Shown: positions 54-26,897 of the stretch, in pieces
Numbering within the stretch: position 1 is the stretch's first letter
Layout of the letters: each line of letters begins with the position of its first letter
Source: an uncultured Pelagibacteraceae bacterium
Lineage (GTDB): Bacteria > Pseudomonadota > Alphaproteobacteria > Pelagibacterales > Pelagibacteraceae
NCBI GenBank assembly: GCA_902569285.1
Contig: CACFTS010000001.1
Location: 1-64,000 of the forward strand
Reading direction: 5' to 3'
DNA length: 64,000 nt
Position numbers and translations under genes: made by a program
Notes under the pieces: model-generated
What the model was told of the DNA's origin: nothing
Database searches by the model: none
The model's input: the letters and a program-made list of their open reading frames with translations, nothing else

Positions 54-2111
54 GTGAAAGCATTTTTAGAAAGATACTTAAACTATATTATTTTTTTTAT
101 ATTATTAATTTTATTAATTACTATAAAGATAATTAATCCACCATTTATAAAATCAATTTCTAATTTAAGTTTTGATGTTTATCAAAAAGTTTTTACTTTA
201 GAAAAAAAAGATACAGATGTAGTTATAATTGATATCGATGAAGATAGCCTTGGAAAATTTGGTCAATTTCCTTGGAGTAGATCTGTTTTTGCAAAGATAC
301 TAGATCAACTCAATACTTCAAATCCTAAAGCAATTGGCTTTGATATATTCTTTGCTGAAAAAGATAAACAATCACCTGAAGAAATAATCAAATCATATAA
401 TTTAATTCCTTCTGATATGGTTGACTTGCAAAAATTAAAAAGTCATGACGAATTATTTGCAGAAAAATTAAAAGCGTCTAAATCAATCATTGCTGTCCTT
501 GGAAGCAATGTTCCTTCACATTCAAATTATGACAGGAAGGCTAAAGCAAAATTTCTATCTAAAGGAGGTGATCCGAAACAATTTACATACTCTTATCCTT
601 ATTCAATAGGATCTTTAGAAAGTTTAGAAGAAAATGTTAAAGGTTTAGGTTCTATATCTTTTTTAGATCAATCAGATGGAATAATAAGATCATTACCTCT
701 CTTAGTTAGATTTAATGAAAAACTATATCCAACTATGGGTTTAGAAATGGTTCGAGTTGGATCTAAACAAAAAAATATTTATGTAGAACTTAATGAAGTT
801 GGGATTAAAAGAATAAGTGCCAGACCTCACAAAATCAAGTCGGATCCAAACGGTATTATTTGGATTAAATATAAAAAATCATTAAAAGAACAATTTATAT
901 CCGCTAGTAAAGTTTATGATGGTGAGTTCAAAAAAGATTTTTTTGAAAATAAATATGTTTTAATTGGTGCATCTGCTCAAGGATTATTCGATTTAGTTAA
1001 AACTCCACTTGGAGTTACTATTCCAGGAGTTGAAGTTCACGCAAATGTTATAGAAAATATTTTAGATCAATCATATTTATTAAGAAATCCAAACACTTAC
1101 ATTTTTGAATTATTATTTTCTATTATAGTTGCTTTAATAACATTTGTATTATCACAGAAAATTAAACCGAAATATAGTTTATCAATTTTCTTTGGAAATA
1201 TTTTAGTAATTATAATAATTGGATTTTCAATTTACAAATTTAGATCTGAACTTGTTGATATAAGTTATCCAATATTTATTGTAACTTTAACATTCCTTAC
1301 TGGACTTTATTTTAGGTTTATAGAGGAAAATAAACTTGCTTTAGCAAATTTACAAAAAGAAGCTAAACTTTTAAAAGAAAGAGAGCTTGCGGCAGGGGTT
1401 CAGAAAAGTTTATTTCCAGATATATCGAAGTTTGAAAATTTTATATATGCTAAAAATGTTCCAGCAAGAGATGTGTCAGGAGACTATTTTGATGTTGTAA
1501 GATCCACACCTGAAGAATATTTTTTTACATTAGCCGATGTTTCTGGAAAAGGAATTAAAGCTGGAATGTATATGGCAAAAGCTTCTTCAATTTTTAGAAC
1601 ACTTACTAATTTAAAATATCCAATAGAAAAAGTTGTATTTGGTGTAAACAATGAGCTGGTTGAAGCTAAATTTAAAGGAATGTTTGTAACAGCTGTTTTT
1701 GGAAAATTAAATATCAAAACTGGAGAATTAGTTTTTATTAATGCGGGTCATGAAAGCATCCTAACGTTTGATCAAAACAAAAATTATGAATATATAAAAT
1801 CTGAAATGCCTCCAATTGGCATTGTGAAATATTTTACAGAGTCGATGGTAAAATCAAATACGATTAATATGAAAGATAAAACTTTTGTAGTTTATACCGA
1901 CGGTGTAACAGAAGGGTATTTAAAAAATGGTGAGGAATTAGGAGCTGAAGGTGTTCAAAAAATTATAAACGATATGTCTGAAATAACTCCTAAAACGATA
2001 GTTGAATCCATTGAAAAAGAGCTAAATTGGGGAGCTGAAAAATTACGTGATGATATTACGTGTATGGCAATAAACATAAAAAACACTGAATTAATAAAAA
2101 AAACTAAATAA
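54..2111 (+). CDS. CHASE2-domain sensor with C-terminal SpoIIE/PP2C-type serine phosphatase (RsbU-like)
   Basis: N-terminal TM plus CHASE2-like region (DVVIIDIDEDSLGKFGQFPWSR..., GVEVHANVIENIL), three TM helices, then a PP2C/SpoIIE domain (DVSGDYFDVV, LADVSGKGIKAGMYMA, NAGHE, VYTDGVTEG). GTG start at 54. Confidence 0.85.
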   Translation: MKAFLERYLNYIIFFILLILLITIKIINPPFIKSISNLSFDVYQKVFTLEKKDTDVVIIDIDEDSLGKFGQFPWSRSVFAKILDQLNTSNPKAIGFDIFFAEKDKQSPEEIIKSYNLIPSDMVDLQKLKSHDELFAEKLKASKSIIAVLGSNVPSHSNYDRKAKAKFLSKGGDPKQFTYSYPYSIGSLESLEENVKGLGSISFLDQSDGIIRSLPLLVRFNEKLYPTMGLEMVRVGSKQKNIYVELNEVGIKRISARPHKIKSDPNGIIWIKYKKSLKEQFISASKVYDGEFKKDFFENKYVLIGASAQGLFDLVKTPLGVTIPGVEVHANVIENILDQSYLLRNPNTYIFELLFSIIVALITFVLSQKIKPKYSLSIFFGNILVIIIIGFSIYKFRSELVDISYPIFIVTLTFLTGLYFRFIEENKLALANLQKEAKLLKERELAAGVQKSLFPDISKFENFIYAKNVPARDVSGDYFDVVRSTPEEYFFTLADVSGKGIKAGMYMAKASSIFRTLTNLKYPIEKVVFGVNNELVEAKFKGMFVTAVFGKLNIKTGELVFINAGHESILTFDQNKNYEYIKSEMPPIGIVKYFTESMVKSNTINMKDKTFVVYTDGVTEGYLKNGEELGAEGVQKIINDMSEITPKTIVESIEKELNWGAEKLRDDITCMAINIKNTELIKKTK

Positions 2112-2121
2112 TTATTTTTAA

Positions 2122-3363
2122 TTACCCGATTAAAGCACCAACATTGAATATTGGAGAGTACATAGCGATCATAAGCCCTCCAATCATGATTCCCATAAAA
2201 ACAATCATAATAGGCTCAATTAAACTTGAAAGGTTCTCAACAACTGTATCGAACTCTGCCTCATAATATTTTGCAACTGAGCCAAACATTTCATCTAGTT
2301 GTCCAGTTTGTTCACCGACTGAAATAAGTTGTCCAAATGTAGGTGGAAACAAAGGATCTTTTAAAAATAATTTTGTTAATGTGTCTCCAGAAAAAACTCC
2401 TTTTTTTACATTCTCTAAAGACTCTAAAACAACCATATTAGTACTAACTGATTTTGCAATTTCTAAACTTTCAAGTAAATTCACACCTGCAGCACTTAAA
2501 TTACCCATAATTAATGAAATTCTAGCTAACATTGATTTTAATATCATGTCACCAAAGATTGGTAATTTCAAAACTCTTTTATGCCATGCGTATCTAATTT
2601 TTTCATTTTTTGCAGTTAAATATTTAAAAGCAACAAAGAAAGTTATAAGTGAAAGTAAAAGAATAAGACCACCTGTTCCTCTTAAAAAATCACTCATTGC
2701 CATAATTGTTGCCGTTGCAGCAGGTAATTTTATTCCCATTCCATCATACATTTTAGCAAATACTGGAACGACTTTAATTAACATGAAGGCACTGACGGTA
2801 ATTGCAACTGTAAACATAATGCTTGGATACATTAAAGCTGATTTTATTTTTTTTTTAATATTTTCTTTTTTTTCAAGAGACTCTACAATTTTATGCAAAA
2901 ATACATCCAACTTACCACTAGCTTCTCCAGCTTTTATTAAGTTTACATAAATGTTATCAAACAGTTCTGGATATTTTTCGAAGCATTTTGATAAAGTAAC
3001 CCCACCTTCTAAGCTTTTTCTTATATCTTCAATAACATCTTTCATTGCAGGGCTTTCTATCTGATCTCTTAACATTCCTAAAACTTGCAGAATAGGTAAG
3101 CCTGCTTTAACCATCGTAGCAAATTGCTTTGAAAACATTAAGACATCTTCGACTTTAGCTTTTTTTTTGCCAAAAAGACTTAAGCCTTTGCCTTTTTTCT
3201 TATCTTTTTCTCCAGATTTTTTCTTTTTTGAAGAACGTACTATATTGGTAATTATTATCTTTTGTTCTTTTAGTTTGTGAGATGCTTCATCTAAATTTAA
3301 AGCTTCGATTTCGCCATCTACATATTTTCCGTCAGAAATCCCTTTGTATGTAAAAGTTTCCAT
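2122..3363 (-). CDS. pilC: Type IV pilus / T2SS inner-membrane platform protein (PilC/GspF family)
   Basis: Two T2SF domains (FSKQFATMVKAGLPILQVL; ARISLIMGNLSAAGVNLLESLEIA), TM segments and C-terminal EPIMIVFMGIMIGGLMIAMYSPIF. Confidence 0.93.
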   Translation of the reverse strand: METFTYKGISDGKYVDGEIEALNLDEASHKLKEQKIIITNIVRSSKKKKSGEKDKKKGKGLSLFGKKKAKVEDVLMFSKQFATMVKAGLPILQVLGMLRDQIESPAMKDVIEDIRKSLEGGVTLSKCFEKYPELFDNIYVNLIKAGEASGKLDVFLHKIVESLEKKENIKKKIKSALMYPSIMFTVAITVSAFMLIKVVPVFAKMYDGMGIKLPAATATIMAMSDFLRGTGGLILLLSLITFFVAFKYLTAKNEKIRYAWHKRVLKLPIFGDMILKSMLARISLIMGNLSAAGVNLLESLEIAKSVSTNMVVLESLENVKKGVFSGDTLTKLFLKDPLFPPTFGQLISVGEQTGQLDEMFGSVAKYYEAEFDTVVENLSSLIEPIMIVFMGIMIGGLMIAMYSPIFNVGALIG

Positions 3364-3376
3364 AAATTAAAATTAT

Positions 3377-5128
3377 TTATTCGTTAGAAAGAACTCTTTC
3401 GTATTCTCTAAAATTAAGTTCCCCCGCTGCAATTAATCTTCTGCCCATATCTTGCATTGTTTGGAAACCTTCTTTAATTGCAATTTCTCTTAGTTCAGGA
3501 GTTGTTGCTTGCCTTAAGATTGCTTCTTTTATAGGTTTAGATACAGAAAGTATTTCATAAATACCTTGTCTTCCTTTATAGCCTGTGTCGCTACATTTTG
3601 CACAACCTTTTCCTTTAATAGCTTTAACTCTAGATGCTAATTCTGCTGTAAAACCTAAATCTTGTAAAACCTTTGGGGTAACATCATCATCAGGAACCTT
3701 GCAATCTTTACAATTTCTTCTCGCAAGTCTTTGTGCAAGAACAAGTTGACAAGCAGCGCTGATTAAATAATCGGGCGTACCCATATTTTGTAATCTAGTT
3801 ATAGTGCTTGGAGCATCATTCGTGTGCAGAGTACTAAATACTAAGTGCCCTGTTAATGCAGCTTTTAATCCAATATCTACCGTTTCTTTATCTCGCATCT
3901 CTCCAACAAGTATAATTTCCGGGTCTTGTCTTAAAAAAGATCTAAGTGCAGTAGCAAAAGTTAAACCTATATCATCTTTAATTTGAACTTGTCCAACTCC
4001 ATCTAATTCATATTCAACTGGATCTTCTGCTGTTAAAATATTTAAATGAGGTTTACTTACCTCTTTTAAAATACTGTAAAGAGTAGTCGATTTACCAGAT
4101 CCTGTAGGCCCTGTTACAAGAATTAAACCTTGAGTACCATGGATTGCTTTTCTTAAATTTTTTAAATCTTGTTCATCAAAATTAAGTTGCTCCAAAGTTA
4201 TGTCTCCTGCGTCTTTATTTAATACACGCATTACTATTCTTTCATTGTTTGCTGTTGGCAAAATTGAAAGTCGAAGATCCACTACTTTACCTTCGATTTT
4301 AAAATTTATTGCTCCATCTTGAGGAAGTCTTCTTTCTGCAATATCAAGTTTACCCATAATTTTAAAACGAGTTACGACAGCTCCATAATTGTCATGCAAA
4401 AATTTTTTATATTGTTCTTGTTCTTTGAGCATTCCATCCTGTCTATATCTTACTCTTGATGAAAATCTGAAAGGTTCAATATGAATATCACTTACTCCAT
4501 TTTTAATAGCATCAGCAACCACTGCCGTACTAAATTTTATTACCTCAGATTCATTTTCAATAGCTTCTATATCTTCCTCTGGTTTATCTTCTAGTATTTC
4601 TCCTGCCTCACCTAAATCAGAATCAAAAGTTTTTTGTTTTTCTTTATTTTCTTTTCTGATGGTTGCTGTAGTTACTTCACCACTCTCCGAAGATAAATTT
4701 TCTATAAACGTTGAAATTTGAGTTAATGGAGCCGCATGTAGTTCAATATTTTTTTTTGTTATTGCTTTTAGGTTTCTCATTAAATTAAGCTTAGAGCTAT
4801 CTGGGATTGCTATGTGTAAAGTTTTTCCATCCATTTTAAATGGAGCAACAAAATTTACTTTTATATAATTTGAAGGAAGAATAGTTTTAATTTCATCAGT
4901 TATTTCTTGTTTAGTTAAATCAACTATATCTAAATTTTGTTCTTTAACCAAAATATCAAGAATACTTTTTTCGTCAGTAAGTTTAAGATCAAATACTGCA
5001 TCTATTTGTGATTTATTACCCTCAGTGCTTGTCTTTTTAATCTTGATTAAATCTTTTCCAGAAATAATATCATTATCAATTAAAACATTGATTAAATTAA
5101 TTTCGCTTTCTCTGCTTATTTTTAACAT
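3377..5128 (-). CDS. pilB: Type IV pilus assembly ATPase (PilB/GspE family)
   Basis: Walker A GPTGSGKSTTLYS, Asp box, Walker B EIILVGEMRDKETVDIGLKAALTGHLVFSTLHTN, tetracysteine zinc motif CKDCK...CAKC. Confidence 0.95.
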   Translation of the reverse strand: MLKISRESEINLINVLIDNDIISGKDLIKIKKTSTEGNKSQIDAVFDLKLTDEKSILDILVKEQNLDIVDLTKQEITDEIKTILPSNYIKVNFVAPFKMDGKTLHIAIPDSSKLNLMRNLKAITKKNIELHAAPLTQISTFIENLSSESGEVTTATIRKENKEKQKTFDSDLGEAGEILEDKPEEDIEAIENESEVIKFSTAVVADAIKNGVSDIHIEPFRFSSRVRYRQDGMLKEQEQYKKFLHDNYGAVVTRFKIMGKLDIAERRLPQDGAINFKIEGKVVDLRLSILPTANNERIVMRVLNKDAGDITLEQLNFDEQDLKNLRKAIHGTQGLILVTGPTGSGKSTTLYSILKEVSKPHLNILTAEDPVEYELDGVGQVQIKDDIGLTFATALRSFLRQDPEIILVGEMRDKETVDIGLKAALTGHLVFSTLHTNDAPSTITRLQNMGTPDYLISAACQLVLAQRLARRNCKDCKVPDDDVTPKVLQDLGFTAELASRVKAIKGKGCAKCSDTGYKGRQGIYEILSVSKPIKEAILRQATTPELREIAIKEGFQTMQDMGRRLIAAGELNFREYERVLSNE

Positions 5129-5133
5129 TTTTT

Positions 5134-6687
5134 TTATAATATTCTTGGAGCAATAAACACCAATAATTCATCTAGTGTATCTGATTTACTCTTTCCTTGA
5201 AACATTTTTCCTATAATAGGTACCTTGTTCATGCCTGGAACACTTGATTTACTGTCTGAAACTACATTCTTTTTAATACCTCCGATTACAACTATGTCAC
5301 CGTCTGCGACTAATAATTTTGTATTAATTTCCATTGTATTAATTCCTACACTTCCAGCATTTGTTCTATTTGGAGAGTCGTTATTAACTTTTACGTCTAA
5401 AAGTACGTTTCCATCACCAATAATACTAGGTGTTACAGTCATTACTAGTGCAGCATCTTTATAAGTGTCTGCACCATCACCCCCTGCAACTGGTATTTGT
5501 TCACCTTGTTTGATTGTAGCTGTTTGGTTATCTAGAGAAAATATTTTTGGATTAGAAATAATTTTAGATAAACCTCGTTTTTCTAAAGCTTCTAATTCAA
5601 CTTTTAATACTGCTGAACCTGTTTTTTTTAATATACCTATACCACTTGTAGCAGCTCCTGCAGGAAAGTTTAGTATTGTATCTTTCCCTGCACCAAAGTT
5701 TGCAGTGTCATCACTTAGTACAGCATCTGGCCCTGAAGGTGCACCTACTGAACTACCACCTTGAGTACCTCCAATCCTTTCATCTTGTCTTGAATAAGCA
5801 CCACCTAATTTATTTCCTAACTCTTGTTCAAAAGAAGATTCAGCTTCAACAATAAATACTTCCATCAAAACTTGTTTAGTTCTTACATCTATTTCTCTAA
5901 TTACTTTATCTACAACGTCTAAATCTTTTTCTTTACCTCTGACAATAATTGAACGTGTTGTTTTTTCTTCTGTAACCTGAATTGGAACAAATGAACCAGT
6001 GTTTGAAGTTGAAGTAAATAATTCAACTATTGTTGCTTTCGCTTCTGCAGGAGAAATATAATAGAGTCTAAATATTTCAGAGATAATTGGTTCAACAGAA
6101 TCCTCTAATTCAACTTTTTTCTTCACAGCTTGCGCTCTAGCTGATTTATAACTTTCTTGCGAAGTCAGTGTTGCTGGTGTAGCTACTCTAATTATATTGC
6201 TTCCAACATCAATATCTGCTGCATAGTTTTTCATATCTAATAAAGCGTTAAATGCTTTATCCCAAGGAACTTCTACTAATTGCGCTGTAATTGAGCCAGC
6301 CACATCTTCGCCAACAAGAATATTTACACCACCAATTTTTCCCATCAATCTCATAGCTTCGCTATAATCCATGTTTTGAAAGTTAAAAGTTAAATTCTGT
6401 TTTAAACTCTTATACTCATCAGGAATTAAAAGATAATTTTTCTCTTTAACTGAAGAAATTTTCTTTCTTTTTTTAAGTTTTACGACATCTGCTTCTACCG
6501 GTATTGGTCCCATATCTGCTGTTTTCTCAAGCTCTGCTTTTCCTAATTTTTTAACATCTGTTTTGATTAAAGGAGTGTCATGTTTAAAACCTTTAGTTCC
6601 TTTTTTCCCCATAGTTGTACAACCCGCAAGAAATAATCCTATTAGAATTAAATTTACAAAAGTTTTAAAATAAGGTTTTGTCATCAA
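5134..6687 (-). CDS. Type IV pilus secretin, lipoprotein form (PilQ/MshL family)
   Basis: Lipobox LAGC at N-terminus; secretin N-domain (YSEAMRLMGKIGGVNILVGEDVAGSITAQLVEVPWDKAFNALL); C-terminal secretin signature (VPGMNKVPIIGKMFQGKSKSDTLDELLVFIAPRIL). Confidence 0.92.
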   Translation of the reverse strand: MMTKPYFKTFVNLILIGLFLAGCTTMGKKGTKGFKHDTPLIKTDVKKLGKAELEKTADMGPIPVEADVVKLKKRKKISSVKEKNYLLIPDEYKSLKQNLTFNFQNMDYSEAMRLMGKIGGVNILVGEDVAGSITAQLVEVPWDKAFNALLDMKNYAADIDVGSNIIRVATPATLTSQESYKSARAQAVKKKVELEDSVEPIISEIFRLYYISPAEAKATIVELFTSTSNTGSFVPIQVTEEKTTRSIIVRGKEKDLDVVDKVIREIDVRTKQVLMEVFIVEAESSFEQELGNKLGGAYSRQDERIGGTQGGSSVGAPSGPDAVLSDDTANFGAGKDTILNFPAGAATSGIGILKKTGSAVLKVELEALEKRGLSKIISNPKIFSLDNQTATIKQGEQIPVAGGDGADTYKDAALVMTVTPSIIGDGNVLLDVKVNNDSPNRTNAGSVGINTMEINTKLLVADGDIVVIGGIKKNVVSDSKSSVPGMNKVPIIGKMFQGKSKSDTLDELLVFIAPRIL

Positions 6688-7190
6688 TTGTTTCTTTCAA
6701 TAATTTGATTTTTAAAGTTGATTGCTACTAAGGAATCTTCCCCTCTTTCAAAAACTACCTCTTTTTGACTTATACTTATTAATTTTATGCCTGGCGATAA
6801 TTCTTCAAAAAAACCTAAATTTATAATTTCACCATCTTCATTAATTAGCGAAGCATACCCTTCATCTTTACCCACGATTACCCCAATCAGTTTGTAATTA
6901 AATACACTTAAGTTTCTTTTCTCCTCTTCTGTATCGGCAATTAATTTCACTGAACTTCCACCACCAAGGGAACCATCGCCAACAAAAGGGTCATTCAATG
7001 GCAAAGGTTCTTCCTTGCCAACTTCTGAACTTATATTTGAATTTTGTAATGCTTGTTGCTTTTTTATTTTTTGATTTATTTCTTTTGCTTTCTCAACAAT
7101 ATTTTTTTCGGTATCATGATTGTCTGCATACGCAATCGAAAATGTGAATAATACACAAATGATAAATATTAATTTTCTAAAAAAAATCAT
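6684..7190 (-). CDS. PilP/MshK-like pilus accessory protein
   Basis: Signal peptide; 'LNDPFVGDG...FNYKLIGVIVGKDEGYASLINEDGEIINLG' resembles PilP-type small beta domain; position in the operon between PilO-like and secretin genes. Confidence 0.6.
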   Translation of the reverse strand: MIFFRKLIFIICVLFTFSIAYADNHDTEKNIVEKAKEINQKIKKQQALQNSNISSEVGKEEPLPLNDPFVGDGSLGGGSSVKLIADTEEEKRNLSVFNYKLIGVIVGKDEGYASLINEDGEIINLGFFEELSPGIKLISISQKEVVFERGEDSLVAINFKNQIIERNN

Positions 7191-7878
7191 CTGCTAAACC
7201 TACTATTGTTAAAGTTCCATTTACTTTTATCGCTCCAGTTGAATCACCCATTCCTTTTACCACTTGTATAGACTCCTTGTCAAAATTTAACATTTTTTGT
7301 GATAAGGAAAGTTGTCTTTTAAACTTAATATATCCTAAAAAGTTACCAGTTATTTCGTAATCTACTGGAATTGTATAATAAGCAACATTTTTAACTGATT
7401 TTTTTTTCTTTTTCGTACTTTTTTTCTTCTTTTTTCCAGTTGCTTTTGCGATAGCATCTGATTTGGTGACTTCTTTAATATCTCTCTTTTCAATTTTAGA
7501 AATTACTAAATTATTCATGGCTGCAAATTCACTTAAAGTTTGATAAAGACCCTCAACTTCTGCTCTTGTATGAAATAATGTTGAATACTGCTCGTATTCA
7601 GGTCTCATTTTTTTAATTTTTTTATTTGCAATTTTAATATTTTGTATGAACTTTTCCGTTTCTTCTTTTTTTGAATTCATATCATTAAGTTGAGCTTTCT
7701 TTTTATTTACTATCGGATTCAAAACTCCATAAAATATGATTAAAAAAAATATTACAGCTCCAAAAGATATTCCAATTTTAATCCATGTTTTTTTCTCCAC
7801 TCTTTTTAGTTTCGCTTGAATATCTTCAAGAGATATGTTCTTTAAATCTATATTTTTAAAATCAATATTAAAATTCAT
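7177..7878 (-). CDS. PilO/MshJ-like pilus assembly protein
   Basis: Single N-terminal TM, coiled-coil, then ferredoxin-like region ('YYTIPVDYEITGNFLGYIKFKRQLS'); position after the PilM-PilN fusion gene. Confidence 0.75.
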   Translation of the reverse strand: MNFNIDFKNIDLKNISLEDIQAKLKRVEKKTWIKIGISFGAVIFFLIIFYGVLNPIVNKKKAQLNDMNSKKEETEKFIQNIKIANKKIKKMRPEYEQYSTLFHTRAEVEGLYQTLSEFAAMNNLVISKIEKRDIKEVTKSDAIAKATGKKKKKSTKKKKKSVKNVAYYTIPVDYEITGNFLGYIKFKRQLSLSQKMLNFDKESIQVVKGMGDSTGAIKVNGTLTIVGLADDFF

Positions 7879-7880
7879 AA

Positions 7881-10295
7881 CTAAACTTTCTTAATCTTAA
7901 CAAAAACTCTAAACCCTTTCATTGTAACACCACCTTTCGCTGTTCGAGGAAGTCTCATTGATGAAAGGGATGCTTGTTCAATTAATTTTTGTTTACCTAA
8001 ATTTTCAATAAATTTTAAAATATCTTGATCACTTGCTGCAACACCTTGGATTGTGATCATGTAACCACCGTTATAATCAACTTTGTCAAACTTCAGTTTT
8101 GAAGGCACACTCGATGCTATTTGAGCTAATACCCTGTAAGTTAATTCTTTATTAGATTTTAATGTACTGCTTAATTTTAAAGTTGTTTGTATTAGCTGCA
8201 GTTCTTTAGTAGTTTTCTTTAATTCTAATGATTTTTGTTCATGAATTTTCATAACATTAGAATAATTCTCAAGTTTTTTATTGTACGAATGAATATTCCA
8301 AAATGATAATGTAAATAATATTAAATATAATGCTGCAATACCAGTTGCTAATCCCTTAAAAGCAAAGCTAGATATTGCTTTCATTTTCTTTTTCTGGAAC
8401 ATGCTTTTTCTGTCTGGAAGTAAATTTATATTTTTTGCTGCGGTTACAAATTTATAATATCCAAATACATCAAGCTTTCTGAATGCTAAACCTATTGATG
8501 TAGTAAAGTATGATCTATTTTTTAAATTAACTTGTTGGTCAAATTGTTGTGGAACTTTTAAGCCTTCAATTGGATCAAATAAATTAAATCCAACATTCAT
8601 TAATGTTTTTCTAAAAATAGATAAATAATCCTCAACATTTTCTAAGTCTGAGACAACTTTTAAACTTCTAATTCTTTTTTCGTATTTAGTTTCAAAATCT
8701 TGAACTGCTTGTTTTACTTGTGTTGTGTATCTTCTTACTAATGCTTCTTTCTCCTCTGCATCTGTAGATTCTAATAAAATTTTTCTATCTTGGCCTCTTA
8801 AAAAAATATCAGTAATTATTGGATTATTATCATATAAAATCATTAAATAATTTTCATCTAAACCAAATTCTAAAACAGCTGTTAAATTTGCATCATCTTT
8901 TTTGTTTGAAATTTGATTAATTTGATCGACAGCAGATTTTAATGCGAAACATTTAACATCAATAATAACTGGATTTAGGCCACTATTTTTTACGATTGAT
9001 ACATAACCATTTATATCGGCTAATTTAGAAGCAACAAATAAGATATCCATGGTGTTATCTTTTTCATTTCTATTTATTACTTGATGAAAAATTGAATAAT
9101 CATCTAAATTATCTGTTAGCTGAACTAAGTTTTCCCATAATGAATTCGTTTCTATTGCTTTTTGTAACTCTTCATCTTTCAACAATGGAGAAGTGACTAC
9201 TCTTATTATTGCACTTGTAACTGGGATAGAAATAGCAACGTTCCCTACATCTATTTTTGATTTTTGTAATGCCAAACTAAGTTCTGTTGTAACCTTTTCA
9301 GCATTTTCTAAAACACTACTTTCATCTGGAATATCTACTTTATGAGTATAAAATTTTTCCAATACCCACTGATTATTCTTATCAGAGTTTATTTGTGCCA
9401 ATCTTATCTCTTTATTTGTAAGCTCAATACCAATTACTTCCTCTCCTTTAATTGAAGATTTTCCTATTTTTGATTTAAAAAAGTTTAATATTTTATTTAA
9501 AGAGTTATTTTTATTTTTAACCGGAGACTTAGGAAGTTTAATTCCTTTTAAAGAAGGTTTTTTAAATTTTAAATTCTTAAATTTACCTAAAATATTAGAA
9601 ACTTTATTTTTAGCAGTCGCATCAACACTATCTTCTGCTTTTTCTACAGCTTCATTGCTTAAAGTAACATCATTATTAACTCCAGACTGTATTTCGGTAC
9701 TTATATTTTGTTTGCTCACATTAGGAGTTGCTTCTGTTGAAACAGTTGGGCTAGGTTTTTCCTCCACATTTACTGTGGGATCGGGTTGTTCTTGAGTTAA
9801 TGGCTGATTTTGCTGTTGTTCTCCGGTTGTTTGTTGAATTTGTTGTCCTTCATCAGCAAGTTTTTTCAATTTCTCACTTTCAGAATGTATATCATCAAAC
9901 CATTTCTCTAAAATTGGAATTGCTTCATCAAGGTTTTGTGTTCCTGACGAAGAAATTTTTTGTTTTCCATCAATATAAAGTCTGCCTACCCAATTTTTTG
10001 ATTTAAGTTCACCTTTATATTTGTCTTGTCTTATATATATATGCAATCTTCCATCTTTTTTATGAATAACCTGATGTTCAGTTGCTTCTTTTTTAACTTC
10101 ATTGGCTGTTTCATCATTTTTCACTTGATTTTCAGAAACATTTTGGTTTTCAGAAACATTTTGGTTTTCACCAGAATTTTCATCAGGAGAATTGTCTAAG
10201 TTTTCATCAACCGAAGGTTGATTTTCAACTTTTTCACCATTTTCCTCATTTTCATTAGAGGAATTTATATTTTCATCTTTTTTATCTTCACTCAT
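7881..10295 (-). CDS. PilM-PilN fusion (MshI-like) with additional N-terminal basic beta-beta-beta-alpha domain
   Basis: Actin-like PilM core (GEEVIGIELTNKEIRLAQI...LTAVLEFGLDENYLMILYD), then TM and PilN-like C-terminus (RKSMFQKKKMKAISSFAFKGLATGIAALYLILFTLSFWN...SSVPSKLKFDKVDYNGGYMITIQGVA). N-terminus has an acidic low-complexity leader plus 'DGRLHIYIRQDKYKGELKSKNWVGRLYIDGKQKISSSGTQNLDEAIPILEKWFDDI'. Confidence 0.85.
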   Translation of the reverse strand: MSEDKKDENINSSNENEENGEKVENQPSVDENLDNSPDENSGENQNVSENQNVSENQVKNDETANEVKKEATEHQVIHKKDGRLHIYIRQDKYKGELKSKNWVGRLYIDGKQKISSSGTQNLDEAIPILEKWFDDIHSESEKLKKLADEGQQIQQTTGEQQQNQPLTQEQPDPTVNVEEKPSPTVSTEATPNVSKQNISTEIQSGVNNDVTLSNEAVEKAEDSVDATAKNKVSNILGKFKNLKFKKPSLKGIKLPKSPVKNKNNSLNKILNFFKSKIGKSSIKGEEVIGIELTNKEIRLAQINSDKNNQWVLEKFYTHKVDIPDESSVLENAEKVTTELSLALQKSKIDVGNVAISIPVTSAIIRVVTSPLLKDEELQKAIETNSLWENLVQLTDNLDDYSIFHQVINRNEKDNTMDILFVASKLADINGYVSIVKNSGLNPVIIDVKCFALKSAVDQINQISNKKDDANLTAVLEFGLDENYLMILYDNNPIITDIFLRGQDRKILLESTDAEEKEALVRRYTTQVKQAVQDFETKYEKRIRSLKVVSDLENVEDYLSIFRKTLMNVGFNLFDPIEGLKVPQQFDQQVNLKNRSYFTTSIGLAFRKLDVFGYYKFVTAAKNINLLPDRKSMFQKKKMKAISSFAFKGLATGIAALYLILFTLSFWNIHSYNKKLENYSNVMKIHEQKSLELKKTTKELQLIQTTLKLSSTLKSNKELTYRVLAQIASSVPSKLKFDKVDYNGGYMITIQGVAASDQDILKFIENLGKQKLIEQASLSSMRLPRTAKGGVTMKGFRVFVKIKKV
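10129..10164. repeat. 18-bp perfect tandem duplication encoding NQNVSE NQNVSE
   Basis: Two consecutive copies of ttttcagaaacattttgg; translated as a repeated ENQNVS in the acidic leader of the PilMN fusion. Confidence 0.9.
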
Positions 10296-11019
10296 AATTT
10301 TTAAAACACTCTAAAAAATATTTTTTAAAACGAATCTCTAACACAAATTTCATAATCTCTAACACAAATTGTTATAAACATCTAACACAAAACTATAAGT
10401 TGTATGCTCATTTTGGGTCAAATTTACAAAAAGTCAATAAAATCAACACTTTTAAGACTTTATTAAATTTTTAAACTTTTAAGATAATTTAACGGTAATT
10501 ATTAAAATTCTAACACAATTTTATAAAAGTCTAACACAATAGATTTTTTTTGATTGTGTTAGAGTATTTGAATTATGTAAAAATTCAAAAAAGCTAGTAA
10601 AATCAATGTTTTTGATTTTTTTAATTAAGGATAGACCTTTTGTGTTAGAGAAATACTTATTTGTGTTAGAGTAAAAAAACTTATTACTAAATTTAAAATA
10701 TTTTAATTTAAATCATGAAATATTTCCATTTCTACCTCAAAATTTGACAAATATCAGAAGTTGTATGTCTAAAATTACAATTTTTAATAGAAATTTACCT
10801 AAAAATACTTTTTTTACTTAAATATTAATTTTTTTACAAAATTAAACTTAAACTTTAACTATTATCATGCTGTTAACAGCTTGCATGCACCATTTAGAGT
10901 ATGCAACTTGGTATATATTTTTCAAAATAACGATTTTGGTATTCTAAATAGAGATTTTAATATTCTGAACATGAATTACATCTAAAAATAAATAAATAAC
11001 ATGGTTTCTAAAATATTTT
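10296..11019. promoter_or_regulatory. Candidate regulatory region upstream of the PilMN-PilO-PilP-secretin-PilB-PilC operon
   Basis: 724 bp with no ORF in the track, containing the TCTAACACAA array, a perfect palindrome GCTGTTAACAGC (10869-10880) and other short repeats; immediately 5' of the minus-strand operon that starts at 10295. Confidence 0.6.
10337..10670. repeat. Array of eight TCTAACACAA decamers (5 direct, 3 inverted) in a long intergenic region
   Basis: + strand copies at 10337-10346, 10358-10367, 10381-10390, 10509-10518, 10530-10539; reverse-complement TTGTGTTAGA at 10554-10563, 10640-10649, 10661-10670. Start-to-start spacings of 21, 23, 21, 24 and 21 bp within clusters. Confidence 0.95.
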
Positions 11020-12856: not shown

Positions 12857-14140
12857 TTAATTTCCATCAATAGTAACAATTGTTAAATCATCTTTTTGAA
12901 CTCTATCTGATTTAATTAAGTCTTCAATTATTTTACTTAGTCTTTGAGAATTGGGTACACTTTGATATTTTTTTATATAATTTTGAAAACCTTCTTGTCC
13001 TAGCATCTCTCCTTTTGTATCTTTCATCTCTGTTATACCATCAGTAAATATATACATTGAGCTTTCCTTGAAAGAAATTAATTTTTCTGTAAATTTAAAC
13101 TTTGGAGCTATGCCTAACGGCGGACCTGCTTCTTCAAAGTTTGAAAAGTCTCCTCCCTTAGAAAAAATTAAAGGTGGTTCATGTCCTGCGTTAGATAAGA
13201 GTAATTCTTTTTTGTTACTATCAAAGATACCAATCACCATTGTCACAAACATACCTCTTGATGCTGTCTCACATATTTCATCATTAAGAATTTTCAAAAG
13301 TTCTGCTGCAGAAAAAATAGTTTTACTTAAGCATCGATAAAGGCTTGAAGCCTTAGACATTAATAATGATGACTTAATTCCTTTTCCAGATACATCAGCA
13401 ACACCAAAACCAAATCTTCCTTCACCAAGATCTGAAAAATTATAAAAGTCCCCAGAGACAACCTTTGCTGGAATATTTATGCCGGCAATAGGAAAAGGAT
13501 CTTTTTTATTTTGAGACAATAAAGTTTTTTGAATATCCCCGACAATTTCTATTTCTTTTTGCATTCTATTTTTATCAATCAATTCTTTTGCAGTTTTTGC
13601 ATTTTTAATCGCAAGTGCTGCTGGTCCTGATAAAGTTTCTAAAAGTTTTCTATCACTCTCTTCAAACAGTTTTGTATTTGTTTTTTTATTTAAACAATGA
13701 ATAACACCTATACATTCTCCCGAAACTATTAAGGGTGAACATAAAACAGAATAAGTTGTAAAGTTTGTTTTATTATCTAGATCAAAATAAAATTCTGCTA
13801 TTTCTCTTACATCTTTTCTTACGTCACCCACTCTAATACACTTTTTAGTCGCTGTAGCTTTACCCATTACTCCCTGAGTAATTGGTATTTCAAAATCTTC
13901 AAGATAAGCTTGATACTTTGATGCGATACATTGAAAAACTTGTTTTTTCTCTTCAATAAAAAAAACATTTGCTGCTTGAGCGTTTATTCTTTTAATGATT
14001 ACTTCAAGCGCATTCTGTAATGTCTCTTTTAAATCTAGAGAGCCTGCAAGCTCGTTGTTCATTTGTGTAATTAAAGCTAGGTCTTTACTGGAAGTATCCT
14101 CCACTTTATTTACTTCAGGTTTTTTTGAACCAAAAAACAT
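12857..14140 (-). CDS. GAF-domain SpoIIE/PP2C-type phosphatase (RsbU-like)
   Basis: GAF region (LKETLQNALEVIIKRINAQAANVFFIEE...VLCSPLIVSGECIGVIHCLNKK) then SpoIIE (VVSGDFYNFSDLGEGRFGFGVADVSGKGIKSSLLMSKAS, SNAGHEPPL, IFTDGITEM). Confidence 0.9.
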   Translation of the reverse strand: MFFGSKKPEVNKVEDTSSKDLALITQMNNELAGSLDLKETLQNALEVIIKRINAQAANVFFIEEKKQVFQCIASKYQAYLEDFEIPITQGVMGKATATKKCIRVGDVRKDVREIAEFYFDLDNKTNFTTYSVLCSPLIVSGECIGVIHCLNKKTNTKLFEESDRKLLETLSGPAALAIKNAKTAKELIDKNRMQKEIEIVGDIQKTLLSQNKKDPFPIAGINIPAKVVSGDFYNFSDLGEGRFGFGVADVSGKGIKSSLLMSKASSLYRCLSKTIFSAAELLKILNDEICETASRGMFVTMVIGIFDSNKKELLLSNAGHEPPLIFSKGGDFSNFEEAGPPLGIAPKFKFTEKLISFKESSMYIFTDGITEMKDTKGEMLGQEGFQNYIKKYQSVPNSQRLSKIIEDLIKSDRVQKDDLTIVTIDGN

Positions 14141-14303: not shown

Positions 14304-15074
14304 GTGTTAATCATCTATATAGCTGTATTTATACTTGGTAGCTTATGGGGAAGCTTTAGTAACGTATGTATATATAGACTGCCTGAGAGAGGAAATGTAG
14401 TTTCCGCTAGATCAAAATGTAGAAATTGCCAAAAAAAGATCAGTTGGTTCGATAATATACCTTTTATTTCATACATAATTCTTAGAGGAAAATGTAGAGA
14501 TTGCGGCTTTAAAATATCTTTTCAGTATTTTGTAGTAGAACTACTGGTAGCACTTGGTTTTCTTATCTCTTTTCACTTTTTTGGTTTTTCTATTGCTACG
14601 TTGCTACTCTTTATATTAACTATTTTCTTCGTAATTATTTTTTTTATAGATTTAAAACACTTTATAATTCCAAATGAATTAACCTTCCCTCTTATGGCGA
14701 TTGGGTTTTTAAAGTCATTTGATCCAAACCTAAATCAATATTTATTTCCAAATTACTTTAATTCATTGATTGGAGGAATTGTTGGTTATTTAATTATATG
14801 GTTCATAATATTTGCTTATAAAAAATTACGAAACAAAGAAGGTATGGGTTTAGGAGATGCCAAACTTTTATCTGCAATGGGCTTCTGGTTTGGGTGGATA
14901 TCAATTCCGTTTATATTATTTTTCTCATCATTTGTAGCCTTAGGCTTTGCAATTCCAAGCTTGGTGAATAAATCTAAAACAATGTCATCACAAATTCCTT
15001 TTGGTCCTTATCTTGTCTTGGGCTGTGTATTATATTTAGTACTGATTGAACAGATTATAAAATATTTGAATTAA
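14304..15074 (+). CDS. pilD: Prepilin peptidase / leader peptidase (PilD/GspO)
   Basis: SLWGSFSNVCIYRLPERGNVVSARSKCRNCQKKISWFDNIPFISYIILRGKCRDCG with paired CxxC; catalytic FFIDLKHFIIPNELT and GMGLGDAKLL. GTG start. Confidence 0.93.
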   Translation: MLIIYIAVFILGSLWGSFSNVCIYRLPERGNVVSARSKCRNCQKKISWFDNIPFISYIILRGKCRDCGFKISFQYFVVELLVALGFLISFHFFGFSIATLLLFILTIFFVIIFFIDLKHFIIPNELTFPLMAIGFLKSFDPNLNQYLFPNYFNSLIGGIVGYLIIWFIIFAYKKLRNKEGMGLGDAKLLSAMGFWFGWISIPFILFFSSFVALGFAIPSLVNKSKTMSSQIPFGPYLVLGCVLYLVLIEQIIKYLN

Positions 15075-15280
15075 TGGAAAAATTACTTTTCTTTAATATA
15101 ATCGTATCCTCATTAAATATTTTTATAATTGTATACGCTTACTCATTAAATTTTTTTCCAAAAAAATGGAGGAAGAAAGTTAATCAAGATACTTTGGTTG
15201 GTCTTACGTTAATTTTTTTTACTATGCTTACTATGTTTGCTTGGATTATATATTTTTATCTAAAAATTTTTAAATTTTGA
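15074..15280 (+). CDS. Small hypothetical membrane protein
   Basis: 68-aa ORF directly after pilD; two hydrophobic segments. Confidence 0.45.
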   Translation: MEKLLFFNIIVSSLNIFIIVYAYSLNFFPKKWRKKVNQDTLVGLTLIFFTMLTMFAWIIYFYLKIFKF

Positions 15281-17042
15281 ATTTAAATACAAGATTTGCC
15301 AGTACGCTGATAGCGTCTTGACTAGAAGTAAATCCATCTAAATTAAATGAAAAAATACTATTCTCATTTGCTTTATATTTATAATTTAAATTACTTGAAA
15401 AACTTGCTTCTTTTTTTAATTCATCGTCTTGATCATAAAAAGTGCTTGTCCCATTAATCAAATAATTTTGATCATCATTATTTGCCAAAGTTCTGTAATC
15501 TAGAATCCACCCTAAAGAAAAATTTCTTTTATCACTTTGAAAAAAAGTATATTCATCACTTAGAGCCGCAGAAATATTAAGAACATGTCTATCATCCCAA
15601 TCAAAATATTGACTTTCTTTATGTGAGGGCGTGTATGAATACCCTAATGTATAACCAATATCAGGTATTAAAAAACTATTATTAAGTTTATTGCCAAATA
15701 AAATTTCAAAATTCTCATAGTTATCTGTAACATTTAATAAACCACTTGAAGTAGTATTGGTAAGAATTAATCTTTCACTTTTATTTAGGGCTATTCCTCC
15801 TAATAAAAAATATTCACCTTTTAATTTTTTACTGTTTTGATGATTATTAAAATAAAATCCTGATAGTATACTTATACGATCTACATCATGATCTTTAGAA
15901 ATATTTTGTAAACTCGTCTCAGCAGATATAACAAAATTTAAATTTTCTAAAGGTTTTATAATATTAGCACCAAAATTTACTAAACTATTTTCCAACTTTA
16001 AAGAACTACTTTTTCCATCTCTTTTAAGTAATGATGAAAATGTTTCTACCCAAGCAGTGTCACGATCTAAAAATTGATCACTATTTTTAAATTGAGTTAA
16101 AGATTTTCTTATATTTAAAGATTTATATCCTAAAGACTCATCTATAAATTCATTTCCTCCTTGTCCAACGGAACCTGCTGAGCCTTTAACAACATTGTTT
16201 CCATCTAAATCTTCTAATGTTAAATTACCAGATGTTTCATAAAAGTAACTCTTTCCTACGCCATGTTGTAATTTTAAAGTATTATTAGACCCACTGGAAT
16301 CAATTATACCAACAACTATACCACCATCTTTTAATGTTAAGGTATTGTTGTTTCCATACAATTCAATTGCAGTTGCACTAGGTCCTTGATTATTTTTAAT
16401 AGTACCACTGTTTGTTATGGTTGAAGTCTTTCTAATTCTAAGTGTGGATTTACTACTACTATTACTTGTTATTTCACCACCCGAATGATTTGTTAAGGTT
16501 AAAGTTTCTGTATTATCAGTTGAATAAATAGTGTTACCCTGTCCACCTGTTGTTGTGCTATAAATTTTTCCATGATTGTTTATAGTTACTGTATCAGAAG
16601 CTCCAACTGATATTGTCCTACCACTTGCATAAATGCTACCACCAGAATTATTAGTTATAGTTGCACCAGATGAATTAGCTAAATCTATAGCTTTAGTGCT
16701 TTCAGAAGAAGAAACGGTTCCTGAATTATTAACTGTTAAACCATCGGAAGCATTACCATAAATTGCATTTCCTCCAGTTGTTGTTTTTACTATTGAGTCA
16801 GAAGATATAACAACTGTTGCATTATTTGCTTCAGCTGATTCAGTGGTATTAATTTTTATAGAATAATTAGCTTTAGAAATAGTAGAATTTGTAATTGTTA
16901 AAGTAATATCTGCAGCATCTTTGATATGCTGTTGAGTAGTTCTTGTTTCACCACTTATTGTTTGGCTTTCAGTTATATTCTCAGCATTTAATTTTGTAAT
17001 AAATATTAAAAAAAAAAAAAATAATTTTAAAATTCTAAACAT
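15270..17042 (-). CDS. Autotransporter-like surface protein: beta-helical Ser/Thr/Asn-rich passenger plus C-terminal beta-barrel
   Basis: Signal peptide; repetitive 'TITNNSGGSIYASGRTISVGASDTVTINNHGKIYSTTTGGQGNTIYS' passenger; C-terminal amphipathic strands ending in hydrophobic residues (ANLVFKFKI). Confidence 0.7.
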   Translation of the reverse strand: MFRILKLFFFFLIFITKLNAENITESQTISGETRTTQQHIKDAADITLTITNSTISKANYSIKINTTESAEANNATVVISSDSIVKTTTGGNAIYGNASDGLTVNNSGTVSSSESTKAIDLANSSGATITNNSGGSIYASGRTISVGASDTVTINNHGKIYSTTTGGQGNTIYSTDNTETLTLTNHSGGEITSNSSSKSTLRIRKTSTITNSGTIKNNQGPSATAIELYGNNNTLTLKDGGIVVGIIDSSGSNNTLKLQHGVGKSYFYETSGNLTLEDLDGNNVVKGSAGSVGQGGNEFIDESLGYKSLNIRKSLTQFKNSDQFLDRDTAWVETFSSLLKRDGKSSSLKLENSLVNFGANIIKPLENLNFVISAETSLQNISKDHDVDRISILSGFYFNNHQNSKKLKGEYFLLGGIALNKSERLILTNTTSSGLLNVTDNYENFEILFGNKLNNSFLIPDIGYTLGYSYTPSHKESQYFDWDDRHVLNISAALSDEYTFFQSDKRNFSLGWILDYRTLANNDDQNYLINGTSTFYDQDDELKKEASFSSNLNYKYKANENSIFSFNLDGFTSSQDAISVLANLVFKFKI

Positions 17043-17059
17043 AAAAATATTTTAATTTA

Positions 17060-20000
17060 CTAAAAACTACTATCTCTCCAACCACCTTTATTGGTTATAA
17101 TTTCTCCTGGAATTGATAGGATCGAAAATAAAGTGCTCGCATCATCAGAAGGTCCCGCAACATTGGCGTATAACTTGTCTCCAAAGACAACAAGCTCTGA
17201 TAATACACCTTTTCTAACAAATCCACACCTAAGGTCTACTGCCCCATCTGAAGGATTAGCTATTGATACACCATCATCATCTACTGGATTAAATTCTAAT
17301 TCATCTAGTTGGGCAGAAGTGTTAGTTCCACACTCATCATCTGCTGCACAAATAAATGCATTTCCTTGATCGCATTTGTTAGCACCTGGAGGTGGTTGGT
17401 AAATTGGATAATAAACTTGTCCTTTAAATAAAGTAGGGGGCGCTGATGCTTTTCTAAATGTTCTAGGTAAAACAAAAGATCCTGAGTCATTTTGTTCTAA
17501 ATGTGCAACCCAAGCTCTGGCACCGGTTTTTAAAGGACAATTACTACCAGATGAATCTCCTGAAGTGTTAACACAAGTTGTGCTATTATCTATGTTGTCA
17601 GCACTGCTTGCTCCTTGATTTGCTAATTTTATAAACTCTGGATTAATTTGCATAGGAACAGCTCCTGGTGATTCTACTGCAGTTGGTATTGTAACCGAAT
17701 TCAAATGTGCCCAATATGGATAGTGTTCATCTTTTATTCCATATAAAATGTTATCCAATTCATTTGCTCTTCCACCAAGATCAGTAAAGTTTCCAGTTGA
17801 ACCAAACAACCAAAAACCACCATCACTTAATCCTAAACCTGCATCCATTGAAAAATATGAATATCTTCCATTATCTTGGGAAGCTTTTAAATTAAATAAA
17901 GTAGTTTGATCAAAAATTTCTGTCGTCCCTGGTATCAAATTACCAGTATCAGCAGTAGCGCCAGGATTATATCCTTTTGTATTATTGGTTAAATTTATTT
18001 TTGTAATTTTACCTTCAAGATCATTAATATAGACTAGTGCTCCTCTCCAAGGAATATTTGGCGCCGTATCAGGAGTGATAACAACTGGAGAGGCTGGAAT
18101 TGCGTTTGTAATATCACTTCCATTTGGAGTGGAAAATACCGTTTGTCCCAAAGTCAATCCACTAGGTGATGTATCCACTATAGTAATAGGCCCGCCGTTA
18201 TCTTGTGCTCCAAATAAACTTCCAGGTTTACCATCAGCGTGACCCTCAAGATCAACTAAGAATACTGCAGAACCTGAACATGCATCATTTCTAGCCATAC
18301 CAGCACCGAATATTGCCACATACCTGTCTCCTTCAATACCACTTCCTAATGTTGAAAAACCTGTAACACCAGATGTTGGTATTCTAGCTATTTTTGGAGT
18401 TGACCAAGTTTCACCTAACTGAGAGTAATCATATTCCGCTGGTAAACCAGAAGCTCCTAAACATGCTGTTATACTAATTTGATTTGAAATTGTTGGTTCA
18501 GTATCTGATTGATTGGCATTAAAAGCTTTAATACCATCAAATGTTATCTGCAAAAGAGCTCCTCCAACACCATCGTCTACCATTTTTGCTTTTGTAATTG
18601 GCACAGCTTGTGGGGCTCCACCAACAAGTTGTGTTGCACTTAAAACACCATCTGGGATCTTGTCTCCTAAAGGATATTCCAAAATAATTTCTGGGAAATG
18701 AAAAGTCTTACCTTTATAACAAGAAGCCGTTCCTGTATTTCTAAAATCAGACGAAGTGCTACATGCTGCAATTTTATTCTGTTCGGTAAATGTGTCATCA
18801 CTGGTTTCTTCGTCCGTATCTCTAGCTTTTTGAAAATTATCTGTAGCCACCTCTCCTTCCAGTGAGGTAAGTAAAGATCCAGAACCTGCATTATAATCGA
18901 ACTCTGTTATAATACCATTAACATCAGCACGTAATATCTTTTGATTAATTTTATCATTAAAAATCGAAAACATATGAATTGGACCTTTGCCTCCATCTGC
19001 ACCAGGTTCTGTAATATCTAGTACTGAAAAACCTGCACCACCTCTTCCATAAGGTATCACCGCTAATGTACGCCAGGATTTTGTACCTGATAGTCCTAAA
19101 TTTTGATTATACCCTCTTATAAATACATCATGAACAACTGGAGATCCATCAACACCAAAAATTGGATTAGTTCCACCACCTCCATCTACTTTACCATCAT
19201 AATCTCTGTTTATAATTTGAGGTAAGAGTGAACCAACAAAAGGAGGGATAAAGCCCCATTGTTCTTTACCAGTTTCCTCATTTATGGCATGAAAGACTCC
19301 ACTGTTAGAACCTGCATAAACTATCTTTTTTCTGTTTGCTTGTTCTGTCATAAAACCTTGATAATTATTAGTGGCTCTATAATAAGCTTCTTGATTAGTA
19401 TTTGTGAAAGCGATATTTGCATCAGGAGGCCCAACTTCTATAAGTTGAGAATGGTATATATCTCCCATAACATGAGCCCTAACTTCTTCTACGTCACAGT
19501 TAGCATTATAATCAAAATAGTCATTACCTTTCATAAAGTTAATCAAACCCTTTACCTCATCGCCTAAATTTGTATCAGCACCCACTGCTGGGCAATCTGA
19601 TGTACTATGGTGGTAATCTGGAATAGTATATCCCAATTTATCAAACATATTTTTTAAGGCAGTAGAGTTACCAGTATTAAAATTATCCCAACTTTTTGCA
19701 TATGTGTCTCCAGGACTCCACGCCGTCCAAAGCTTCCTAGTATCAGGCGCACTTCCTGCGGTCGACTGACCTTTTATCATAGTCGCAGCGCTCCAATTAC
19801 CATGAGTATTTCCAGGTGACGTATCATGCTCAACACAATCATCGCTTGTATCAGTATTAGTATCATCACATTTACCTGGTTTCAGAAATTTCTTTAATAT
19901 AGTTCCACGCCATTCACCATACTGTTCGTAAGCAAATTGCGCTTGATATATCGATCCACCCTTTTGAATAGTGGCCGAAATAGATGGAGCAGTAAATGCA

Positions 20001-22111: not shown

Positions 22112-22114
22112 AAT

Positions 22115-22651
22115 TTATCCCATCATATCAATTACTCGTTCATCTGATCTATAGTCTATCATTTCCGAATTAGTAATTTCTAACACTTCAAACACATCAC
22201 CTAAGATTTCCATCTTGCTGTACATCATTATTAAACTTCCAATACTTAAATTTTTATATCCAATCCAATTATCATTCTTAACTTCATCACCTGGATCACC
22301 AATGTTATTTTTTACAAACTCATAAATTTCATTCTTAATCTCGCTATTGGATACAATTATATTTATGCCAGCAATTTTAGAATCATAAACTATAACTTCC
22401 AAATCTGCATTTTCCAAATTAGAACCTTCGCAGTAGTCTAAAGCGTAGACTTTATATCTTACAGATATTTTTGTTCCGATTAATTTAGCATTATAATTGC
22501 TTAAAAAAGTGAAAGTGTTTTGAGCAGTACTAACTGGAGATCCAATTGGTACCGATAGCAAAGAACAGGCATAGGAATAACTAGTAAAAAATAGAAAAAA
22601 TAAGAATTTTATGAAAATTTTTTTCATTTTAAAATTATAAAGATAAGACAA
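22115..22651 (-). CDS. Hypothetical secreted protein
   Basis: Signal peptide (KIFIKFLFFLFFTSYSYAC); sits between pilX-like and pilY1-like genes on the same strand. Confidence 0.5.
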   Translation of the reverse strand: MSYLYNFKMKKIFIKFLFFLFFTSYSYACSLLSVPIGSPVSTAQNTFTFLSNYNAKLIGTKISVRYKVYALDYCEGSNLENADLEVIVYDSKIAGINIIVSNSEIKNEIYEFVKNNIGDPGDEVKNDNWIGYKNLSIGSLIMMYSKMEILGDVFEVLEITNSEMIDYRSDERVIDMMG

Positions 22652-22698
22652 TTTTATTTCAATATAAGTAGCTGCTCATTTTAAGCTATTTATTAAAC

Positions 22699-23388
22699 TT
22701 AATGTGAAAGAATCACTATAGTTTCTAAAGGAACTAATATTTCAGGATTATTCGCATTTCCCATCATGCCACATGCATAAATTCTATAAGCTGTTCCCAT
22801 TCTTTGAGCTGATCCTGAGGTTTTTTTTAAACTCACACCTGATGCTTTATAACTAGATGTACCTGAGTTAACCGAAAAAAATTCGTATCTAAATCTTTGA
22901 AGTTTTTCTTGTTCAGCTCTAATTGCGGCAGCTGTATCAACTGTTGGATTAAGCGGAAAACTTGCATCTGTAAAAATAGGTTGAATTAAATCATAAAAAT
23001 TTTGATTTTCAACTTGTTCAATTACTCTAAAATCAGCAGCTCTAGTTAAATTTCTAAAACTTTTATAACAAGGTGTTTGATTGGGTGCTGGATCATCTGA
23101 CACTCCATCTCCATCCTTATCTCCATTACGCGGAATATATCTACCATCATAATCTCTAATTCCACTAGCAGTGTTTATTGGACCCAGCATCTTGTCTAAT
23201 AAACTCTTCTCTGCTTGCATTAAAGCAGTTTCAGCAACATAAAAAGTCTGTTGGTACTCATCACTACTGTTATTGCCTTGATGATCCGAAGAAGCAATAA
23301 CAATTAAAGCGCCACCCATTAAAGACATCGCAAGCAACAAAACTAAAGATAAAACTAAAGCAAATCCTTTTTGTTTATTTCTTATCAT
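22699..23388 (-). CDS. PilX-like minor pilin assembly protein
   Basis: N-terminus 'RNKQKGFALVLSLVLLLAMSLMGGALIVIASSDHQGNNSSDEYQQTFYVAETALMQAEKSLL' typical of PilX N-domain. Confidence 0.85.
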   Translation of the reverse strand: MIRNKQKGFALVLSLVLLLAMSLMGGALIVIASSDHQGNNSSDEYQQTFYVAETALMQAEKSLLDKMLGPINTASGIRDYDGRYIPRNGDKDGDGVSDDPAPNQTPCYKSFRNLTRAADFRVIEQVENQNFYDLIQPIFTDASFPLNPTVDTAAAIRAEQEKLQRFRYEFFSVNSGTSSYKASGVSLKKTSGSAQRMGTAYRIYACGMMGNANNPEILVPLETIVILSH

Positions 23389-26807: not shown

Positions 26808-26897
26808 TACAAATATTTATCTATAAACACAAAAAAAACAATAATTACTTAAAAGAAAACAACTCATTGTGTGCTCAAAATGATGGTTAAAGAATAC

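Follow-up and report, generated by a model that had tools for sequence, protein, structure and literature searches.

A phased array of integrase arm-type-like sites upstream of pilMN in Pelagibacteraceae as the probable target of the PilMN N-terminal domain

We found eight exact copies of TCTAACACAA within 334 bp upstream of pilMN, a pilus gene in a stretch of 64,000 nucleotides from an uncultured Pelagibacteraceae bacterium (hereafter the window). The PilMN protein carries an N-terminal domain homologous to the N-termini of tyrosine integrases, and the array is very probably the target of that domain. Comparative evidence strongly supports PilMN-array binding, from which we infer physical contact. 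Taken as a whole, the reading that PilMN bears a captured integrase arm-type domain, that it recognizes an attP-like array and that it most likely regulates its own operon is on balance probable. The array, its conservation and phasing, its co-occurrence with the domain, the homology of the domain and the matching integrase sites are all established at the level of sequence.

Array of eight phased sites upstream of pilMN

The array occupies the intergenic space from the start of minus-strand pilMN (10295) to the 3' end of a pirin gene (11020), which leaves pilMN as the sole gene with the array upstream (Table 1). A preliminary description of this DNA had placed eight decamers directly 5' of the pil operon, and a sequence scan returned all their positions and strands exactly. 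Five of the eight extend to an 11-mer, as it had also reported, and the extended form is CTCTAACACAA. Its statement that the decamer is rare by chance holds as well: exact TCTAACACAA is expected ∼0.28 times per 64 kb (both strands) and 0.0015 times per 334 bp, where eight copies are present. Apart from shifted forms of TCTAACACAA, other 10-mers reach at most 5 copies per 400 bp in the window, and the maximum for any 10-mer in Markov-simulated windows (n = 20) was 3 copies per 400 bp. The decamer could also have been dense elsewhere in the genome, a check that the description had proposed. Throughout the assembly (839,570 bp scanned, ∼59% complete) only two further copies of TCTAACACAA were found, each isolated and single.

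Table 1. Positions of the sites, candidate control elements and pil genes in the window
Feature	Position	Strand	Remarks
Arm-type-like site 8 (CTCTAACACAA)	10337..10346	+	–51 from pilMN start, coding orientation
Arm-type-like site 7	10358..10367	+	–72 from pilMN start
Arm-type-like site 6	10381..10390	+	–95; immediately downstream of putative –10
Arm-type-like site 5	10509..10518	+	–223 from pilMN start
Arm-type-like site 4	10530..10539	+	–244 from pilMN start
Arm-type-like site 3	10554..10563	-	Inverted; –268 from pilMN start
Arm-type-like site 2	10640..10649	-	Inverted; –354 from pilMN start
Arm-type-like site 1	10661..10670	-	Inverted; –375 from pilMN start
IHF-like bend element between promoter-proximal and middle clusters, AAAAAGTCAATAAAATCAACACTTT	10428..10452	+	Conserved in footprint alignment; A-tract + WATCAANNNNTT; putative IHF assignment
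Second IHF-like bend element, between middle and distal clusters, AAAAAAGCTAGTAAAATCAATGTTTT	10587..10612	+	Conserved in footprint alignment; putative IHF assignment
Putative sigma-70 promoter of pil operon, TTGACC-18-TATAGT	10392..10421	-	10/12 consensus match, best in region
pilMN, PilM-PilN fusion with N-terminal extension, 804 aa	7881..10295	-	Pfam PilM_2 3.6e–18, PilN 1.6e–8
Integrase arm-binding-type domain of PilMN, ∼residues 73–137	9885..10079	-	∼50–60% identical to L221/L222 integrase N-termini
Rest of pil operon	2122..7878	-	Pfam
Secretin PilQ	5134–6687	-	Pfam
PilB-type ATPase	3377–5128	-	Pfam
PilC	2122–3363	-	Pfam
Two small, unassigned ORFs at PilO/PilP positions	6684–7190, 7177–7878	-	PilO/PilP by position only

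Sites collected from 70 loci at ≤1 mismatch (n = 437; a collection rule that favours uniformity) give the consensus C(77%)TCTAACACAA(A 70%), in which the core TAACACA is conserved at 99–100%. Across 41 aligned loci, mean conservation is 0.91 in the decamers versus 0.63 outside them. Columns that are ≥95% conserved in this footprint make up 76% of decamer columns versus 8% of those between decamers. The common layout is two sites, a gap of 86 bp, three sites, a gap of ∼128 bp and three more sites. Neighbouring sites on the same strand are 20–23 bp apart, and the long gaps vary by about one helical turn (86/97; 117/128/139/150). The best spacing period is 10.6–10.7 bp, with the phase held across gaps of 85–161 bp. 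This phasing, together with conservation focused on the decamers, agrees with the earlier proposal of a phased, cooperative, operator-like array.

The conserved elements between the clusters consist of an A-tract followed by TAAAATCAAYNNTTT and resemble IHF sites. An A-tract with WATCAANNNNTT occurs 0.88 times per region versus 0.03 in shuffles. Strict matches to the IHF consensus WATCAANNNNTTR with an upstream A-tract are present in 22 of 57 regions; the window copies have T at the last R. Two HU/IHF-family genes were found in the assembly. In the lambda H' site the A-tract-to-WATCAA spacing equals that of the bend elements of the array, which we regard as a lead. We infer IHF occupancy of these elements, as well as the direction of regulation discussed below.

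The putative pil promoter is a consensus match, the best in the window's array region, and stops just ahead of the –95 site. Promoter-consensus matches in the region are not clearly more numerous than expected from shuffles, and no uniform promoter position was found across the main clade. In one subclade (L124–126 and L256–257) a site lies between the –35 and –10 of a TTGACA-17-TATTGT-type promoter. As a separate observation, GATTC (a GANTC/CcrM site) comes right after the promoter-proximal site, read in coding orientation, in many loci (TTGTGTTAGAGATTCG; window 10332–10336), and a link to cell-cycle methylation is possible.

The N-terminal domain of PilMN and its integrase relatives

With PilM_2 and PilN domains encoded inside a pil operon, the pilMN product has the marks of the type IV pilus proteins PilM and PilN; TIGR01175 matches it at 5e–21, below that model's cut-off. 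PilMN is membrane-anchored via its PilN segment, and the extra domain is N-terminal, ahead of PilM. The N-terminal extension of long PilMN proteins comprises two highly variable linkers around a near-invariant block of ∼63 residues (VIHKKDGRLHIYxRQDKYKGELKSKNWVGRLYxDGKQKISSSGTxNLxxAIPILEKWFDD). No other part of PilMN is as conserved as this block, which has a mean pairwise identity of 0.90 (linkers, 0.22 and 0.17; PilM, 0.76; PilN, 0.55). A search of open-access full text turned up no PilM described as carrying a DNA-binding domain.

Several further genes surround the operon. SpoIIE-type phosphatases are encoded on both of its sides, one CHASE2-SpoIIE and one GAF-SpoIIE (window 54–2111 on the plus strand and 12857–14140 on the minus strand), and partner-switching control of the pilus locus is possible. 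The pilus locus extends upstream in the window (14304–29195). It includes a prepilin peptidase (14304–15074), a 1683-aa ORF without a Pfam match at a PilY1-like position (17060–22111), a PilX-like protein (22699–23388) and an autotransporter beta-domain protein (26898–29195).

The block has relatives in integrases. A tyrosine integrase of genome G145 (L127; PF00589, E = 1e–7) has an N-terminus 59% identical to the PilMN block, and genome G456 encodes both a second domain-bearing integrase and a long PilMN. Two more integrases, from other Alphaproteobacteria, were retrieved with a domain HMM (L251 and L252; E = 2.6e–4 and 3.5e–4), again with the domain N-terminal. In the integrases it sits ahead of the catalytic domain (PF00589 in L221/L222), where integrases have their arm-binding domain, and by homology it is of the arm-binding type; the role of the N-terminal arm-binding domain is stated in PMC2951348. 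An AF2 model of the domain (pLDDT 85) has strands at 12–21, 24–36 and 39–44 and then one long helix at 50–76. This is compatible with the arm-domain fold, a three-stranded sheet against a C-terminal helix, but we do not take it as proof.

Foldseek searches of PDB and BFVD with the model of this small domain gave no match at E < 0.001, a PDB sequence search with the domain profile gave none at E up to 10, and Pfam models, arm-domain models included, did not match the domain. The family of unknown function phrog_17986 matched it at E = 0.016 only. Given the Foldseek result and the missing Pfam arm-model match, we base the assignment to a fold family on the sequence homology with integrase N-termini. 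The curated arm-domain models also miss the N-terminus of a bona fide integrase (L262), so the Pfam result for the PilMN domain weighs little.

Two SAR11 integrase elements provide sites for comparison (L261 and L262; G145:C1:109000-117500 and G456:C3:145000-153500). Both are located in tRNA-Leu(CAA) beside dedA, and in seven relatives this tRNA gene is intact at that place. Next to dedA, the 5' half of the gene alone was read in each element; a complete copy lies just past int and is followed by a serine-recombinase gene, a second recombinase. The integrase-flanking site CTCTTACACAA is identical to the PilMN consensus CTCTAACACAA at 10 of 11 positions. The pattern [CG]TCTWACACAA occurs 4 and 3 times in the two 8.5-kb stretches (0.04 and 0.02 expected), including next to int and just beyond the complete tRNA, and was not found in the rest of the window. 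Hence, domain proteins from two unrelated contexts are accompanied by sites with a single difference in 11 bases.

The pilMN sites thus have one short consensus in direct and inverted copies that is common to integrases with the same domain, as arm-type sites do. No tyrosine-recombinase gene adjoins the array in the window, its flanks being pirin and pilMN. Since there is no core site or recombination context, we class the array as arm-type-like sites and not as an attachment site. The preliminary description had named no regulator; it missed both the likely binder, the N-terminal domain of PilMN encoded 42 bp away, and the resemblance to integrase arm-type sites.

The domain also occurs in viruses. 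Five viral contigs (L136–L140) encode a small protein composed of the same domain and a C-terminal hydrophobic helix (112–116 aa; L136 3983–4330, L138 1828–2178, L139 3983–4333, L140 1078–1416), possibly a DNA-binding protein that marine phages tether to the membrane. Versions of the domain with a link to the membrane therefore exist elsewhere. No decamer array was found near these viral proteins. INPHARED phages gave no match to the domain and only distant integrases with the L127 integrase as query, and a search of IMG/VR with the domain-bearing integrase returned none. Viral contigs with paired TCTAACACAA (six) or CTCTTACACAA (two) were rejected as candidates, as they showed no domain-bearing integrase near the sites and no other connection with the domain, and several sites fell inside structural-protein ORFs.

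Co-occurrence of domain and array in relatives

Among 399 genomes of the same genus, the domain is present in 73 and a paired array, defined as TCTAACACAA-N9-16-TCTAACACAA, in 67. All 67 array genomes have the domain, and none of the 326 genomes without the domain has the paired array (Fisher's test, P-value ∼1e–69, which ignores relatedness and overstates the evidence). The six domain genomes without an exact pair comprise two contig ends (L103, L122), three diverged arrays (L133, L124, L125) and the L127 integrase. In G300, the pilMN contig starts at the gene (L107) and a decamer pair is found at the end of another contig.

The close decamer repeats listed for 61 genomes all lie upstream of a PilMN of ∼750–820 aa (G000, G032, G015, G025, G003, G028, G035 and G027). 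Short PilMN proteins (∼570–595 aa) have neither the domain nor the array, and no other repeat array was found at their promoters. The comparison with relatives suggested earlier thus came out in favour of the array, which is kept at the equivalent place where the PilMN type is the same and is absent with short PilMN. Long PilMN proteins from three further genera of the family are each accompanied by 8–9 sites in other layouts. In a tree of the PilMN core, short forms nest within long ones and a long form with sites (L102) nests within short ones. This nesting indicates more than one joint change of domain and array, helped by physical linkage. Their linkage may in part be trivial, as adjacent elements are inherited together.

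Proposed function and relation to known systems

Overall, we suggest that an integrase arm-type domain was captured in Pelagibacteraceae by fusion to a membrane-anchored PilM-PilN. Several PilMN molecules would bind the eight phased 11-mers in three clusters, and the IHF-like bends between the clusters would compact the DNA into an attP-like complex that lacks a recombination core. Since such a complex would cover the pil promoter region, PilMN would most likely repress or feed back on its own operon. It would also link this locus to the inner membrane where the pilus has its base. We consider autoregulation rather likely as the main effect of binding. It is favoured by the site inside the promoter in one subclade and by the precedent of the integrase IntS, which represses its own promoter where this overlaps its arm sites (PMC2951348). 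Against this explanation, an array of eight sites over 375 bp exceeds the need of a simple repressor. More tentatively, the pilus base might be a site-specific DNA-binding machine, in which PilMN docks on a folded attP-like array by its own genes and couples the pilus to a chosen locus for positioning, segregation or assembly-state feedback.

The chief alternative to autoregulation keeps the binding and changes its purpose. The array might dock or tether the pil locus to the membrane pilus base, in a centromere- or anchor-like manner with little transcriptional effect, and we give this a distinctly smaller chance. The membrane anchor in PilN with a DNA-binding-type domain at the N-terminus before PilM would suit tethering, as would the viral family with its domain joined to a hydrophobic helix, and an array with bend elements and eight phased sites in 330 bp goes beyond what a promoter operator requires. 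However, the array invariably lies directly 5' of the putative binder's own gene, as autoregulation expects, and the site between –35 and –10 in one subclade points the same way.

It is unlikely that an unrelated regulator uses the array as its operator, with the PilMN domain binding something else and the correlation due to linked inheritance. Array and domain are within ∼0.5 kb and could be inherited as a block, and only a single clear re-gain (L102) and a single loss clade were seen. Yet same-domain integrases in unrelated elements carry the sites with one base changed, and rearranged arrays (L115–L126, L255–L258) still accompany the domain. Much less probable is a functionless attP/attL relic, left when the integrase of an old phage or island beside pilMN decayed to a fused arm domain. 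Domain and sites both have integrase relatives and the layout resembles arm sites with IHF-like bends, but a relic would decay, whereas here sites and domain are best conserved while flanks and linkers have diverged, and spacing changes keep the helical phase. These signatures of purifying selection argue against a functionless array; taken as an origin only, the relic is compatible with capture of an arm-type domain by PilMN. Replication iterons, an idea of the preliminary description, or a DnaA-box array of an origin or mobile replicon are hardly credible and were dropped: short phased repeats in an AT-rich spacer would fit, but the flanks (pirin and pil genes) showed no replication or partition gene, the array strictly follows one form of the pilus gene, and its core TAACACAA departs from the DnaA box TTATNCACA.

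SAR11 bacteria, which rank among the most numerous in the ocean, possess very few dedicated regulators. If our proposal is true, PilMN would clearly exemplify the reuse of a phage DNA-binding module in a machine of the cell surface, and either direct feedback from pilus assembly to the chromosome or a physical linkage is predicted. With a defined binder, defined sites and controls at hand (short PilMN without the array; the integrase site with one base different), this reading is directly testable.

The closest known systems are the arm systems of lambda Int and KplE1 IntS. In common with these, PilMN has a domain with homology to integrase N-termini, and its 11-bp sites are multiple, direct and inverted, with IHF-like bends between clusters. 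Unlike them, the PilMN system has neither a core site nor a catalytic domain; its arm-type domain is part of a pilus assembly protein, and its sites lie by the pil promoter instead of in an attachment site. Negative autoregulation of intS at attL (PMC2951348) is similar in that an arm-binding protein, a putative one in the case of PilMN, is encoded immediately downstream of the sites. The IntS arm sites overlap the intS promoter (PMC2951348), and the PilMN array would likewise overlap its own, putative promoter; PilMN differs as a structural, membrane-anchored pilus protein whose regulatory role is presumptive. PilMN also resembles the inner-membrane PilM/PilN platform of type IV pili, as it has the PilM_2 and PilN domains and genes for secretin, PilB and PilC come after it, but PilM and PilN are fused and an extra N-terminal domain of DNA-binding type is present. 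CadC and ToxR are membrane-bound one-component regulators with a cytoplasmic DNA-binding domain that act near promoters. Like them, PilMN is membrane-anchored with a predicted cytoplasmic DNA-binding domain near a promoter; its domain belongs to a different DNA-binding family, and its membrane part is pilus machinery and not a dedicated sensor.
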